Positions 32,563 to 57,593 of a stretch of DNA of 64,000 bases are shown here, one piece after another. The stretch's first letter is position 1; every line of letters starts with the position of its first letter. Made by a program: the position numbers and the translations under genes. Origin of the DNA: an uncultured Caryophanales bacterium (lineage in GTDB: Bacteria; Bacillota_I; Bacilli_A; RFN20; CAG-826); the NCBI GenBank assembly GCA_946414655.1, contig CAMKPL010000002.1:197765-261764 (forward strand), written 5' to 3'. The notes under the pieces are model-generated. The model was not told the origin of the DNA. It did no database searches and saw nothing but the letters and a program-made list of their open reading frames with translations.

Positions 32563-35109
32563 TTACTTTAAGTCTGATAGACGCTTTTTGAACTCTTCTA
32601 ACTTCTTTTGTTCTAACTCAACTTTTTCTTTTGGAGCGCGAGCAACAAAATTCGGATTATTCAGCATTCCTTCACAGCGTTTGATTTCGCTTTCAAGAAA
32701 GGCAATATCACGAGCGCGTTTCTCTTCGAGTTCTTCTTTGGAAATTTCATCTTCAATATAAAGAGTCATCTTTCCATACGCGTATTTCATTCCTTTATCG
32801 TAATGTTTACTAGTGAAGACAATTTCTTTAGCAAACGTAAAACGTTTGAGATATGTTTCAAATTCGTCAAATGGTTGATTTTCGCTTTCCACAACAAGCT
32901 TCAAAGCATAATTTGGCGCAAGTTTGTTCGTGACTTTATAGTTACGTAGTTCTCCAATCATCTTCATTAAGAGTTCAACCTCAGAGACATCATCCTGATA
33001 TTTTTTCGCCTCTGGATAAGTCTCAATCATGATTGATTCCTTGTGCTCAGGCAAAGCCTGATAAAGTTCTTCCGCAATAAATGGAGCAAATGGATAAATC
33101 ATTAAAATGATTGAACGAACAATTTCGATGAGGATTGTACGAACAATATTTTTATATTCTTCATTCTCTCCTTGGAGAGTTACTTTACTCATCTCTAAAT
33201 AATTTGAGCAGAAGTCATCGTAAACAAAATTATAAAGATAGTTTGATGCCATCGAATATTCATATTTATTCATGTAGCCATCCACCGCTTTAATTGTTTC
33301 GTTTAAACGAATAAGGATGTGTTTTTCCACTGGAGCAAGTTCATTGAACTTGTAATCAACTGGTTTATATGATTCACCAAGTGATTCAAGAACATAACGA
33401 ACCGAATTCCAAATCTTATTTAAATAATTGCTCGAAGCAGCTACTTTTTCATCAATATAACGAATGTCTTGACCTGGTGCAGAACCAGTTGTTAAGAAAT
33501 AACGTAAGGCATCAACACCATACTTATCAATCACATCAATCGGATCAATTCCATTACCGAGTGATTTCGACATCTTTCGCCCTTTTGAGTCACGAATTAA
33601 TCCATGGATTAAGCAATCCTTAAATGGAGATTCTTTCGTGAATTCGAGGGAGTCAAAAATCATTCGACTAACCCAGAAGAAAATAATGTCATAAGCCGTA
33701 ACTAGGAGTGAATTTGGAAAATAACGCTTAAAGTCCGGAGTTTCTTCTGGCCAACCAAGTGTCGCAAATGGCCATAAAGCACTAGAAAACCATGTATCCA
33801 AAACGTCTTCATCTTGGACATAGTTTGGATCAGTGATTTCTTCTTCGGAGACTAAAATCTCACCTGTTTGCTTATTGTAATAAGCAGGAATACGATGTCC
33901 CCACCAGAGTTGGCGTGAGATACACCAGTCATCAACGTTTTCCATCCATTGTCTAAAAGTATGGTTAAAACGAGTTGGAACAAAGTTCACACTAGATTTT
34001 TCTAAAGCTTGGTCAGCAAGTGGTCTCATTTTGACAAACCATTGTTTTAAAAGCATTGGTTCCACAACTGTGTGGCTTCTTTCGGAGTGACCTACTTGGT
34101 GAACAATGTCTTCAATTTTAATCAGACGTCCATCTTTTTCGATTTGCTTGACTAAAGCTTCGCGGCATTCATAACGGTCCATACCTTTGTATTTTCCGCA
34201 GATATCGCTCATCTTAGCGTCTAAATCCATACATTTTGGACGAGCTAAATGATATTTTTCGCTTAAAGCGAAGTCATTTGGGTCGTGTGCTGGAGTACAT
34301 TTCATCGCTCCAGTACCAAATTCAATATCGACATATTCGTCAGCCATGATTGGTAATTCTTCTTCATTAGCTGGATTTATCGCCTTTTGACCAATGAGAT
34401 GTTTGTAACGCTTATCATTTGGGTTCACAAACACCGCCACATCGCCAAACATTGTTTCTGGTCGAGTTGTGGCAACAGTTAAATATTCTTTGGAACCAAC
34501 GATTGGATATTTAAAGTAATAAAATTTTCCTGGATCATCAAAATATTCGACTTCGATGTTGCTTAATGCAGTTTTCAGTTCTGGGTCATAGTTAATAATG
34601 CGTTCTCCACGATAAATAAGACCTTTATCATATAACGTCTTAAAGACATGTCGAACGGCGCGGCTAAGATTTTCATCAAGCGTGAATCTTTCACGCGTGT
34701 AATCAAGCATTAGACCCATTTTAGCCCATTGTTCATGGATGTTCTTGGCGTACTCATGCTTCCATTCCCAGGCTTTCTCAAGGAATTTTTCTCTTCCAAG
34801 GTCATAGCGAGAAATTCCTTCTTTACGAAGTTTTTCTTCAACTTTGGCTTGCGTAGCAATGCCAGCATGGTCCATGCCGGGTAACCAAAGGACATCGTAG
34901 CCTTTGAGTTTTTTATATCGAGCAGTAATGTCTTGAACAGTCGTATTCCAAGCGTGCCCTAGATGAAGTTTACCAGTGACATTTGGAGGAGGAATGACCA
35001 TCGAGAATGGATTTTTGGTTTTATCTCCAGCAGTAAAATAACCTTTGGACTTCCAAAAGTCATATTTTCCTTGTTCAACTTTCTTTGGATCATAGCGTTT
35101 ATCTAACAT
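32563..35109 (-). CDS. valS: valyl-tRNA synthetase
   Basis: PPPNVTGKLHLGHAWN (HIGH), GRKMSKSLGNGIDPIDVI (KMSKS). Confidence 0.97.
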   Translation of the reverse strand: MLDKRYDPKKVEQGKYDFWKSKGYFTAGDKTKNPFSMVIPPPNVTGKLHLGHAWNTTVQDITARYKKLKGYDVLWLPGMDHAGIATQAKVEEKLRKEGISRYDLGREKFLEKAWEWKHEYAKNIHEQWAKMGLMLDYTRERFTLDENLSRAVRHVFKTLYDKGLIYRGERIINYDPELKTALSNIEVEYFDDPGKFYYFKYPIVGSKEYLTVATTRPETMFGDVAVFVNPNDKRYKHLIGQKAINPANEEELPIMADEYVDIEFGTGAMKCTPAHDPNDFALSEKYHLARPKCMDLDAKMSDICGKYKGMDRYECREALVKQIEKDGRLIKIEDIVHQVGHSERSHTVVEPMLLKQWFVKMRPLADQALEKSSVNFVPTRFNHTFRQWMENVDDWCISRQLWWGHRIPAYYNKQTGEILVSEEEITDPNYVQDEDVLDTWFSSALWPFATLGWPEETPDFKRYFPNSLLVTAYDIIFFWVSRMIFDSLEFTKESPFKDCLIHGLIRDSKGRKMSKSLGNGIDPIDVIDKYGVDALRYFLTTGSAPGQDIRYIDEKVAASSNYLNKIWNSVRYVLESLGESYKPVDYKFNELAPVEKHILIRLNETIKAVDGYMNKYEYSMASNYLYNFVYDDFCSNYLEMSKVTLQGENEEYKNIVRTILIEIVRSIILMIYPFAPFIAEELYQALPEHKESIMIETYPEAKKYQDDVSEVELLMKMIGELRNYKVTNKLAPNYALKLVVESENQPFDEFETYLKRFTFAKEIVFTSKHYDKGMKYAYGKMTLYIEDEISKEELEEKRARDIAFLESEIKRCEGMLNNPNFVARAPKEKVELEQKKLEEFKKRLSDLK

Positions 35110-35128
35110 AAGCTGACCTCCTAACAAA

Positions 35129-53185: not shown

Positions 53186-53323
53186 GTTTGTACTTTAATT
53201 GTCATCTAAAGGAAACGGATAAACAAGACTTTTTCAAGTTATATTGCATCATTTCAATAATTGATTTTGAAACTGATGCTAAATATAGAAATATTTTGTA
53301 TAATTTTTTCAGAGGTAATTTCT

Positions 53324-55699
53324 ATGGATAATGTTTGGATTATTATTTTACTTTCGGTTGGCGCTTTTTCTTTTATTGCTTTGGCGCTTCGCTTTATTAT
53401 CCGACTAAAAAAGTATGACTTTATCGGAAATATTGTGTTTTATATCATTGTTTCTTATTTGGTCTGTTTGATGTTTGCTTTAGCAGCAAACTTCCGTCCA
53501 ATCTCAATAGAGATTGTTAATAATGTAAAAACCGTCAAATACGATTTTGAAAGTGCAAATATCAACATTCCTGCCGCGATTGCCCAATCTTTGTTCGATG
53601 CTTTAAGAATGATGGCTGTGGCCTTTGATCAAAGCCGCATTAACGCATATGGAGAATCTCCAGAGTTAGCCCACCGTTGCTTCGCTTATGGTTATGCACT
53701 AGCGTCAATTTTAGCCCTTGTTTTCACCTCGATTACCACTGTCCTTTCCGTCTTAAAAACATTTAAGGCACGTTTAACAAATGTTTGGAGACTTAGAAAA
53801 AGAGACACCGAAATCTATTACATCTTTTCTGATCCAAAAGTAACAATTGCTCAAAAACTCGGAACTGTTTTAAAAGATGACGGAAAAATCGTTGTCATGT
53901 TATTAACTCGATCTTCCCAGAAAACTCAGGAAGGTACCGAGTATAAAGATATGCTCATCTCCAAAGGTCTTGTTGTTAAAACAGAGAGTTTTAGCCAAGG
54001 TATTGCCAAGTTTATTTTTAATAAACATTTCAATAAGCAATATCATTTTCTTACAAGATTGTTTGGTTATGATAAAAGAAGAGTCTTTGTTTATGGTCTT
54101 TTCTCTGATGACGAAACATCCGTTGAACTTGGAAGTAATTTTAAGGATGCCATCACAAGCAACAAACGCTTCATTGATTTAAAAACAAAACTAAAAAACA
54201 AAACAATTAAGAATGAAGAATTCGAAAAATTTAGAAAAATTCGTGTTTTCTTAACATACCACTTAACTGATTTTGATATGGAAAGTGGTTATTCACAAGA
54301 AACATGTCAAATGGTTTCTACCCTTTCCGAATACGACATGATTTCATCTGAATTTGTTTTAAATAACCAGATTTCGAACTTTGTTAACATGAAGGAAATT
54401 GGTGAAATAAAAGATAACAAGAACTTTAACGTCACCTTCTTTGGATTTGGCAATATTAACCGCCCAATTTTTGAAAAGATGTCCTATGCTTATCAGCTTT
54501 GGGGAGACAATATTAACAAAGTTAATTACCACGTATTGGACCGTATTTCCGAATCATTAGTAACCTCTTATGAAAATCAATTTACCACTGGTAAAAACGA
54601 TCTTCTTTTATATCACATTGATGCGGATGGAGATGGAAAAGATCTTAAATCATATGAATACATCCATTCTTATATTAAGAAGATCAAAGACAACAAACCG
54701 GATGAAAAGAATGTAACTCATTTCAATAATCGTTTTCAATCGAGTGGTTTCGAAGTCTTTGTTGTTTCGATTTGTGACACAAATACAGATATTCGAATTG
54801 CTTTGATGCTAAGAAAAGCGATTCTTAATATCTTTGAAAAAGATAAGGAACGAATTAGCAAAGCAATTATCTTTGTTCGTATTGGAAACGAACATATCGG
54901 AAAACAATTCTGTGATACCCATAAATACGAGGTTATTTCTCAAGAGAAACTGAATGAAGGCTATCTCTTTGAAGAAGGTCATATCGATGTCCCAATTGTT
55001 GTCTTTGGACAAAACACACTCATGTCCAAATACATTTCGGATCACTTACGTACGATTATGAAACTCGGCTTAGCTAGTGAAATTGCTTATCACGCTGGAA
55101 ACAAAAATGAAGGTGACACATATGATCCAAAATATGTCGCCCAAGTCGAATGGTTTAAGAAGAACAAAAATAAAATTTCCAAGAATACGTCCACCGTATA
55201 CTCACTTAAAGCCAAACTTAACCTTTTAGGTTATAAGTTAACAAATGACTACAAGATTGCTCGACTTGACGGAAAACAAATTCAGCCAAATGAAATCGAA
55301 CAAGTCATGAAGAAGTCAACATTCCCAAAAGAATGGGACATTAAAAACGACATTATTAAGTTAGCTGCTTTAGAACATAACCGTTGGATGGCAACAGAAT
55401 ATCTACTTTTCAAATCTGATGTTTGGAAAATGGATGAATTTCTTGCTAACTGTGTTGACGAAGAATATAAAGGTGTTAACACTCGCTCACCTGATGGAAC
55501 CAAACATGCTTGTATGGTAACAAACGAGGTACTGCATAAAATGCGCGATAAACTTCTCAAGGTTGATGCTCCAGAATGGTTCCCAGAAAAAGTTGATAAA
55601 CTAACATACTATAACGACATTAATATGTTGTTAATGATGTTTGAAACGTTAGATGTTGTTCAAGTTGAACAAGAAGGTAAGAAAAAAGCCAAAAGTTAA
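53324..55699 (+). CDS. membrane protein with TrkA-N-like Rossmann region(s) and C-terminal RyR-like domain
   Basis: N-terminal TM helices, FNVTFFGFGNINRPIFEKM NAD-binding-like loop, C-terminal KLAALEHNRWMATEYLLF...TKHACMV resembling the RyR repeat. Start adjusted to MDNVWIII with AGAGGT RBS. Confidence 0.65.
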   Translation: MDNVWIIILLSVGAFSFIALALRFIIRLKKYDFIGNIVFYIIVSYLVCLMFALAANFRPISIEIVNNVKTVKYDFESANINIPAAIAQSLFDALRMMAVAFDQSRINAYGESPELAHRCFAYGYALASILALVFTSITTVLSVLKTFKARLTNVWRLRKRDTEIYYIFSDPKVTIAQKLGTVLKDDGKIVVMLLTRSSQKTQEGTEYKDMLISKGLVVKTESFSQGIAKFIFNKHFNKQYHFLTRLFGYDKRRVFVYGLFSDDETSVELGSNFKDAITSNKRFIDLKTKLKNKTIKNEEFEKFRKIRVFLTYHLTDFDMESGYSQETCQMVSTLSEYDMISSEFVLNNQISNFVNMKEIGEIKDNKNFNVTFFGFGNINRPIFEKMSYAYQLWGDNINKVNYHVLDRISESLVTSYENQFTTGKNDLLLYHIDADGDGKDLKSYEYIHSYIKKIKDNKPDEKNVTHFNNRFQSSGFEVFVVSICDTNTDIRIALMLRKAILNIFEKDKERISKAIIFVRIGNEHIGKQFCDTHKYEVISQEKLNEGYLFEEGHIDVPIVVFGQNTLMSKYISDHLRTIMKLGLASEIAYHAGNKNEGDTYDPKYVAQVEWFKKNKNKISKNTSTVYSLKAKLNLLGYKLTNDYKIARLDGKQIQPNEIEQVMKKSTFPKEWDIKNDIIKLAALEHNRWMATEYLLFKSDVWKMDEFLANCVDEEYKGVNTRSPDGTKHACMVTNEVLHKMRDKLLKVDAPEWFPEKVDKLTYYNDINMLLMMFETLDVVQVEQEGKKKAKS

Positions 55700-55723
55700 G
55701 GTCTTATCGATGAAATTATTGAA

Positions 55724-55754
55724 AAATAACTCGCCGGTCGCGAGTTATTTTTTT
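55724..55754 (+). terminator. intrinsic terminator downstream of TrkA-N/RyR gene
   Basis: AAATAACTCGCCGGTCGCGAGTTATTTTTTT. Confidence 0.8.
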
Positions 55755-55780
55755 AACAAAAATACTCCTTACGGAGTATG
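55755..55780 (-). terminator. intrinsic terminator downstream of the small RyR gene
   Basis: Minus strand ATACTCCGTAAGGAGTATTTTTG. Confidence 0.65.
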
Positions 55781-55784
55781 ATTG

Positions 55785-56066
55785 TTATTTCTTTTCAACT
55801 TTGTAACCAAGTTTAAGAACGACTTTAATCGTCTCTAAAGCGGTCTGACGATCATAGTCTTTGTCTTCTTCAGAAAGTTCTTCATATGGAATAAGACACG
55901 GAGTGGTTTTCTTCTCCGAATCTTTCTTTTCTCCATAGACCCAACCTTCCTTAATTCTTTGCTTCGCCCAGACATCGTGAACGTTTTTCGCAATGAGTTC
56001 AACAAGAGGTTTTAAATCACTTGGAAGATCAATACTTTGGGTATCGATTGGATTAGGCTTGTACAT
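55785..56066 (-). CDS. stand-alone RyR-domain protein
   Basis: LIAKNVHDVWAKQRIKEGWVYGEKKDSEKKTTPCLIPYEELSEEDKDYDRQTALETIKVVLKLGY matches the RyR repeat pattern closely. Start adjusted to ATG MYKPNP. Confidence 0.88.
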   Translation of the reverse strand: MYKPNPIDTQSIDLPSDLKPLVELIAKNVHDVWAKQRIKEGWVYGEKKDSEKKTTPCLIPYEELSEEDKDYDRQTALETIKVVLKLGYKVEKK

Positions 56067-56499
56067 TTTTACATTCAAGGATGCGGTCGACTAGTTCGGC
56101 TTCTGGGTAAGTAATAACTCCATCAGCACTGACTAGACAGGCACCATAAATAATTAAAGCAATTCTGTCATCACGATTAAGAATCGAGATGAACTCAAAG
56201 CAGTGTTCGACGAATTTGGCGTCACTACCACCGTTTGTCATTTCATAAAAGTCATCATAAGTCATGTTCGATTCCGTGACGATACGGAAGAGTTCATATT
56301 CTTCTCTTGAACAGTCTTTATCACCGCTAACAAATAAACGGGTAAATAAGACAAAAAGAGTCTTAATTTGGTCATTACTGACTCCACCATTATGTAGACC
56401 ACGAGCAAGACGAGATAAAGCTTCTTTAGCCGTTCCGACTTTTGTTTCGAAACTTGATTGACAGACGTCTTTTAAAGTTGATTCAACAGCTGGATTCAT
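56053..56499 (-). CDS. TerB-like helical protein
   Basis: All-helical with FVSGDKDCSREEYELFRIV and LVSADGVITYPEAELVDRIL, resembling TerB-family acidic metal-site motifs; overlaps RyR start. Confidence 0.6.
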   Translation of the reverse strand: MNPAVESTLKDVCQSSFETKVGTAKEALSRLARGLHNGGVSNDQIKTLFVLFTRLFVSGDKDCSREEYELFRIVTESNMTYDDFYEMTNGGSDAKFVEHCFEFISILNRDDRIALIIYGACLVSADGVITYPEAELVDRILECKNVQA

Positions 56500-56549: not shown

Positions 56550-57593
56550 TTAGGCGAGAGATATTTTCTTTTCGACTTTAATTAGATATAAGTTTACTTT
56601 TTCTTTGTAGCGTTTCTCTTTGCTAGCCAATGTTAGATAGTATTTACTTCGGGCAAAATCACCGATGTAATAAAGACAGATGCCTTTAAGTAGGGCGATG
56701 TATGGATCAAGAGGATCTCTTTTATCAAAAGATAAAAGCTGATATGCGAGATTGTATTGTTTGAGTGTTAACAAGAATGGAATTGGTAGTTCCAAGAGGT
56801 TTTCTTCGCTCAATCGGTTTGGGAACGTTGTTAAGACTTCTTCCATTAAGTGGATGAAGATTTTTCGATCACTAACTTCTTCGTAGACACGAATCAGTTG
56901 ACGAGACAAAGCTTTAAAATTAGCTTGACGATGCTTGAAGAAAGAATAGATGAACGCCATCATGATTTGAACTTCTTCTTGTGACTTAATTGCGTTTGTG
57001 ATGAGAGGGAAATTATTGATAATTCTTTCTTTGTTTTCCTTGCTAATAGGGATGACTAGTCCAACAACTCCGCTACCTGGGTAACGATCTCTAAGTTCTC
57101 TTTGAGAATGGATTTGAGCGTGAATCTTTGAAATATCGGCCTTAATGACCATTTTAAGAATCATTTCTGCTTTTTCACTAGCTTCATCTGGGTCATCGGC
57201 ATAGTCATCTTCAAGATCACAATCTGGGAAGATGATTTTGGTGCCTTTAGTTTTCTCATCAATTAAGAAAACAACATTGATCGTCACGTTTTCTAGTTCA
57301 GGAACCATTTTCTCTTTGTAGTTTTGGTATACTTCGTCACTCACTTCAATCGAAATGTTTTCCACATCTCGATTTGGCCACTTTCTTTTAATAGCATCAA
57401 TACTTTCAGGAGGATAACATTGCTCTGGAGAGGACTCCACCATGAGTTTGAGAAGATCCTTTGCCATATAAATGGCGTCGTCATAGCCTTCACCAAAGGT
57501 GTAGGCTCCTAAAATATTAGGGATCGTGACATTAATAAAAGATTGATCTTCTTGATCCTGATATAAAGTGATTGGGTAAGTGATGGTTTTCAT
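56550..57593 (-). CDS. protein with two tandem HicB-like antitoxin-fold domains and helical-repeat C-terminus
   Basis: MKTITYPITLYQDQEDQSFINVTIPNILGAYTFGEGYDDAIYMAKDLLKLMV (HicB_lk-like), second copy VTINVVFLIDEKTKGTKIIFPDCDLEDDYADDPDEASEKAEMILKMV, then TPR-like helices. Confidence 0.6.
   Translation of the reverse strand: MKTITYPITLYQDQEDQSFINVTIPNILGAYTFGEGYDDAIYMAKDLLKLMVESSPEQCYPPESIDAIKRKWPNRDVENISIEVSDEVYQNYKEKMVPELENVTINVVFLIDEKTKGTKIIFPDCDLEDDYADDPDEASEKAEMILKMVIKADISKIHAQIHSQRELRDRYPGSGVVGLVIPISKENKERIINNFPLITNAIKSQEEVQIMMAFIYSFFKHRQANFKALSRQLIRVYEEVSDRKIFIHLMEEVLTTFPNRLSEENLLELPIPFLLTLKQYNLAYQLLSFDKRDPLDPYIALLKGICLYYIGDFARSKYYLTLASKEKRYKEKVNLYLIKVEKKISLA

Follow-up and report, generated by a model that had tools for sequence, protein, structure and literature searches.

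Thoeris and other TIR-NAD+ defence systems pair a TIR gene with a separate effector that carries a nucleotide-sensor domain, and membrane effectors are known in some of their types. In animal calcium signalling, the sensing of cyclic ADP-ribose (cADPR) by RyR domains has been a matter of dispute. Phage RyR proteins were reported in 2026 to bind cADPR isomers made by TIR enzymes and to cleave them; in one of these, RyDEP, 2'/3'cADPR cleavage is catalysed by H75 and D117, while W78 stacks on the adenine and the phosphates are held by H100 (PMC13232231). The protein analysed here (the target), encoded in a 64,000-nucleotide stretch of DNA (the window) from an uncultured Caryophanales bacterium, belongs to a family whose loci, like those of Thoeris, can combine a TIR gene with a separate sensor-bearing protein, but its sensor is RyR-like and sits on a membrane protein with an RCK-like Rossmann region, the TIR partner is a fusion with a methyltransferase, STAND/TPR or LRR, and some loci carry a VirD4-like/ClpP cassette. 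PADLOC models, including those of described Thoeris effector types, gave no match to it. The target shares with RyDEP and the other phage RyR anti-Thoeris proteins (PF02026; PMC13232231) the ligand positions HxxW, His and Asp, although these are soluble, phage-encoded evasion proteins, whereas the target is a bacterial membrane protein, divergent at the profile level and with long inserts between its ligand residues. Animal ryanodine receptors are also membrane proteins that carry the RyR domain and possibly have nucleotide gating, but are ~5000 aa long compared to ~790 aa, and no sequence relation between the membrane parts was detected. Similarly, K+ channels and regulators of the TrkA_N/RCK type place a cytosolic TrkA_N-like Rossmann domain behind a TM region, as the target appears to do, but the latter has no TVGYG motif, does not reach the Pfam TrkA_N model and ends in a RyR-like C-terminus.

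The target gene (53324..55699, + strand) is an open frame for 791 aa with a 30-member family, and alignment of homologue starts favours the ATG at 53324 over the upstream TTG at 53261. Relative to a 94%-identical copy in genome G120 it has no stops and a dN/dS of 0.18, falling to 0.05–0.07 across the TM and first Rossmann parts, so that the gene is real and under purifying selection. Among 30 aligned homologues (15–94% identity to the target), E684, R687 and D765 are invariant, and conservation is at least 90% at H685, at W688 and at two Rossmann glycines, G374 and G376. Protein and then alignment searches found relatives in 28 of the 279 genomes of the order and only sparsely in the phylum, which was thinly sampled outside the clade. 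A search of genome contigs returned the 94%-identical copy as the sole relative, the closest named record being 'Bacillales bacterium UBA4278', and none were found among the viral contigs, plasmids and phages searched. The literature consulted, whose scope did not extend to the TIR-system survey of Yirmiya et al. 2025, yielded no description of the protein; that preprint, reportedly a survey of TIR systems, is the likeliest place of a prior description and may already cover the system.

The C-terminal domain (~residues 664–776; 55313..55651, +) holds the motifs AALEHNRW (681–688) and KHACMV (727–732), matching the H-x-x-W ... K-H-x-C pattern from which the original prediction proposed a RyR-like domain. 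Up to E = 10, direct searches of Pfam (with its RyR model, PF02026), NCBIfam, PADLOC and PDB found no relevant match to the target; the best PDB profile match was a designed protein. In hhalign, residues 664–791 aligned with genuine RyR domains at 63% (E 7e-5), other regions of the target giving 0.1–0.2%, and the C-terminus aligned with RyR domains and RyR-bearing membrane paralogues combined at 93.5% (E 2.4e-7; controls ≤0.2%). The C-termini of these paralogous membrane proteins, in turn, aligned with RyR at 97.7% (E 1.8e-12) and with the target C-terminus at 92% (E 6e-7). One paralogue (L131, in G076) matched the target-family profile with E 2e-21 and Pfam RyR with 1.4e-4, which lies under the curated cut-off, and gave a weak TrkA_N match. 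The target C-terminus therefore appears homologous to RyR domains at the profile level, and the prediction stands in that form but not as a Pfam match; since the support comes through hhalign and paralogues and lies under the Pfam cut-off, 'RyR-like' is the correct term rather than Pfam membership. AlphaFold2, given only two sequences as input (the window's and L001), returned a pLDDT of 34 for the full length and 42 for the C-terminal domain.

Comparison with RyDEP points to H685, W688, H728 and D765 as putative ligand residues, the counterparts of H75, W78, H100 and D117 respectively; the H728 and D765 correspondences were drawn by eye, because the H685–H728–D765 spacing is longer than in RyDEP. 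H685, W688 and D765 rank with the most conserved positions of the family; H728 is less conserved, being Asn in G176 and G068. Just before it, residues 700–725 show a striking divergence (dN 0.38) between the two nearest copies, the target and that of G120, and this patch is possibly a ligand-specificity loop or a recombined segment.

At the N-terminus, hydropathy bears out the predicted TM segments, of which there are three, at residues 4–22 (53333..53389, +; kept in most of the family), 37–55 (53432..53488, +) and 126–144 (53699..53755, +). Between the second and third lies a hydrophobic stretch conserved in alignments, S-x-FDALxMMAVAFD (residues 80–101; 53561..53626, +), which is placed like a channel pore helix and might serve in a pore. 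The central nucleotide-binding loop VTFFGFGNINRPIFEKM (residues 370–386) and the further Rossmann-like stretches IDVPIVVFGQNTLMSKYI (from 554) and DTEIYYIFSDPK (from 161) of the original prediction are all present in the frame. A first putative Rossmann region, suggested by conserved motifs, spans ~residues 163–270 (YYIFSDPK...SSQKTQEGTE; 53810..54133, +) and gave no profile match to TrkA_N. The second, at ~residues 367–540 (GFGNIN...HVLD...VVSICDTNTDIRIAL...IIFVRI; 54422..54943, +), appears TrkA_N (RCK)-like: residues 360–560 aligned with same-clade TrkA_N profiles at 27–31% in hhalign (E 5–7e-4; control regions 0.1–0.9%), in a collinear alignment that starts at the glycine loop and extends to the last strand. 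Pfam TrkA_N (PF02254) did not match the target up to E = 10 and gave weak fragments only in the paralogues, so the predicted TrkA_N likeness is weakly indicated by the profile comparison and not by the library model. Because direct library matches are absent, the RyR and TrkA_N labels both stand on profile-profile and bridging evidence.

Neighbourhood maps place TIR genes with Pfam support beside members of the target family in seven genera, and two-gene operons of TIR and target are frequent among the TIR-linked relatives. TIR-methyltransferase genes lie directly upstream of the target homologue in G219–G221, divergent from it in G010 and overlapping its 3' end in G023; a TIR gene precedes it by 9 bp in G115 and in G069, where the homologue is split into two frames; TIR-LRR lies just downstream in G435; and TIR-STAND-TPR lies three genes upstream on the same strand in G055. 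As in Thoeris, a TIR gene is thus genetically linked to the gene for the presumed sensor/effector. A weaker TIR match adjoins the homologue of G169, a TIR-NACHT-LRR gene lies two genes away from the paralogues in G109 and G184, and G013 has a gene of the DUF4062 family, recently reported as TIR-like NADases (PMC13174449), nearby. A TIR label considered by eye for the neighbours in G167/G252 and G195 was dropped and left uncounted when Pfam gave none. TIR-methyltransferase fusions were also seen at L133:10067-11383 and L144:9616-10920. Long variants of the target have a ~300–320 aa partner directly downstream (L023:2997-3959, L061, L062, L063, L064, L065), whose C-terminus in L023 and L061 has an EEHRRW motif suggestive of another RyR-like domain, with no Pfam match.

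Co-occurrence across 196 genomes agrees with this linkage. A TIR_2 match is present in 14 of 17 target-positive genomes and 49 of the 179 others (P 1.2e-5), and TIR-methyltransferase in 10 of the 17 (P 2.7e-9; 7e-5 at genus level), P values other than the genus-level one treating genomes as independent and the counts using the 17 positives known before G115 and G069 emerged from neighbour reading. With those two added, all 15 sampled TIR-methyltransferase genomes carry the target family or a paralogue. The target's own locus has no adjacent TIR gene; its partner is in trans, a TIR-methyltransferase gene unlinked to the target on another contig (G000:C8); the G120 copy of this gene is 96% identical. 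TIR neighbours are likewise absent beside the members in G176, G068, G257, G158, G271 and G231, and TIR_2 matches are absent genome-wide in G176, G068 and G195.

On balance, we think the target probably acts as a membrane sensor/effector of a TIR-based (Thoeris-like) nucleotide-signalling immunity, gated via its RyR-like domain; we infer the identity of the signal, its binding, the gating, the pore and the anti-phage role. Infection would trigger the TIR protein, in many cases TIR-methyltransferase or TIR-STAND-TPR, to turn NAD+ into an ADP-ribose-type signal. The C-terminal RyR-like pocket (H685, W688, H728, D765) would bind this signal, and the RCK-like Rossmann region would pass binding on to the three-TM part, which could open a pore or otherwise disrupt the membrane. 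Where relatives carry the cassette, its soluble VirD4-like ATPase may feed an active/inactive ClpP pair, so that a proteolytic arm is added or regulated, and the stand-alone RyR protein encoded next to the target may buffer or destroy the signal. The nucleotide-sensing role first proposed for the domain is strengthened by the TIR association and by the binding or cleavage of 2'/3'cADPR, which are TIR signals, by RyR-domain proteins (PMC13232231). The more specific version, in which TIR-made cyclic ADP-ribose gates a RyR-domain membrane pore and some relatives couple a VirD4-like motor to a heteromeric ClpP protease, we put forward tentatively, as a possibility with the balance against it.

The cassette consists of a ~304 aa protein (p304), a VirD4/TraG-type ATPase (Pfam T4SS-DNA_transf, E 2e-37) and two ClpP-like proteins, and it lies beside the target homologue in G120, G010, G097, G082 and G055, with variants in G261 and G147. 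The ATPases have no TM segments, and Walker A/B is retained in nearly all of them; of the two ClpP-like proteins, one keeps Ser, His and Asp and its partner is without Ser and His. The module of p304, TM-less ATPase and ClpP pair was seen at L015:10365-14266, L018, L020, L022, L073, L126 and L127. Its composition suggests an undescribed ATP-dependent protease. In the window the cassette is gone: G120 DNA aligns to either side of a ~3.9 kb gap, at which p304, the VirD4-like ATPase and both clpP genes are missing from the window, and blastn junctions place the 3' end of the second G120 clpP, with the intergenic DNA that follows it, directly after the target (55686..55793, +). The target's last codons derive from this clpP DNA, read in another frame, and GGTCTTATCGATGAAATTATTGAAAAATAA, at 55700, falls within the scar. 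No VirD4-like ATPase was found elsewhere in the window's genome (1.2 Mb in 41 contigs, 97% complete), which has therefore lost the cassette and retained a clpP scar.

The chief rival of the TIR-effector reading assigns the target a role in steering ClpP. Anchored in the membrane as a signal receptor, or as the site where the VirD4-like ATPase/ClpP docks, it would recruit or activate proteolysis in its nucleotide-bound form and would form no pore itself; here it would be an orphan left by the deletion. Seven of the eight genomes with close ATPase homologues, representing all six genera, carry the target family (P 7.5e-8), G055 has the operon-like order TIR-p304-ATPase-TARGET-ClpP-ClpP, and the make-up of the soluble ATPases and of the ClpP pair suits such a role. 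We nevertheless judge it unlikely, as the cassette is missing from most family members and lies away from the target in G188, G158 and G031, where it stands alone, which makes it a module, not an obligate component. Moreover, comparison of the strain that has the deletion with the one that does not shows the target still under purifying selection, an argument whose weight depends on the age of the deletion.

The stand-alone RyR gene (55785..56078, − strand; 97 aa) lies 86 bp downstream of the target and is convergent with it. Its product, unlike the target, is a direct match to PF02026 (E 1.9e-36), and in PDB it matches ryanodine-receptor repeats and 3nrt, a bacterial structure. Residues H34, W37 and D76 are retained, and with them the His/Asp pair that is catalytic in RyDEP, while T59 replaces the phosphate-binding His (RyDEP H100 position); the protein is a candidate signal buffer or off-switch. 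If the RyR-like domain of the target itself degraded or sequestered the signal, the target would end TIR signalling as a host equivalent of RyDEP, and the catalytic pair H75 and D117 does have conserved counterparts in H685 and D765. That role is improbable: hydrolysis does not require a three-TM, multi-Rossmann carrier, the small neighbouring protein is a better fit for an off-switch, and the two-gene operons of TIR and target (G115, G219–221) resemble a sensor with its effector. Overlapping the stand-alone RyR gene is a gene for a small TerB-like protein (56053..56499, −; weak Pfam TerB, E 0.064), whose homologues in other genomes lie close to the cassette or to TIR genes, followed by a recurrent neighbour with a HicB-like N-terminal domain (56550..57593, −; PF15919, E 2.7e-7; homologue in L022). 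Elsewhere in the window, an ordinary T-box leader (RF00230; 35145-35339, −) lies upstream of a large gene (32563-35127) that matches a valyl-tRNA-synthetase-like protein. The original prediction did not include the true RyR gene, the linkage to TIR, the VirD4-ClpP cassette or the scar left by its deletion.

A TVGYG-type selectivity filter is absent from the target and the family members inspected, as had been noted from the sequence at the outset, and the reading as a plain K+ channel was dropped for that reason. The TrkA_N-like Rossmann domain behind a TM region might still suit a housekeeping protein for Trk/Kch-like K+ uptake or channel regulation, equipped with a ligand sensor in the cytosol, but the patchy distribution within the order, the strong TIR co-occurrence, the missing filter and the separate presence of ordinary TrkA_N proteins in the window's genome make this very improbable. 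Least credible is a part in a mobile or conjugative element rather than in immunity, raised by the coupling-protein-like nature of the cassette ATPase and its T4SS-DNA_transf match, given that no relaxase or mating-pair genes were seen in the loci read by eye, the ATPase has no TM anchors and the target has no plasmid or phage match.

The target family is not alone in placing a RyR domain near TIR or ClpP/VirD4-like genes, as HD-RyR-SLOG-like conflict proteins (G005, G058, G142) do so too, although these are soluble with an HD N-terminus, whereas the target is membrane-bound. One such protein adjoins ClpP and a VirD4-like ATPase (L135:4484-12801, in G058), and another adjoins a TIR-HD protein (L136:6018-11187, in G142). 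They appear to be a second RyR architecture tied to the same partners (TIR; ClpP/VirD4-like).

Under the TIR-effector reading, an antiviral signalling pathway that mirrors cyclic-ADP-ribose/ryanodine-receptor signalling in animals probably acts on the membrane through the target. If this is true, a host RyR-like membrane protein in two-gene operons with TIR would provide a small, testable case of a TIR signal acting through a RyR domain on the membrane, and the recurrent VirD4-like/ClpP cassette suggests that an unrecognised regulated protease belongs to the same pathway.
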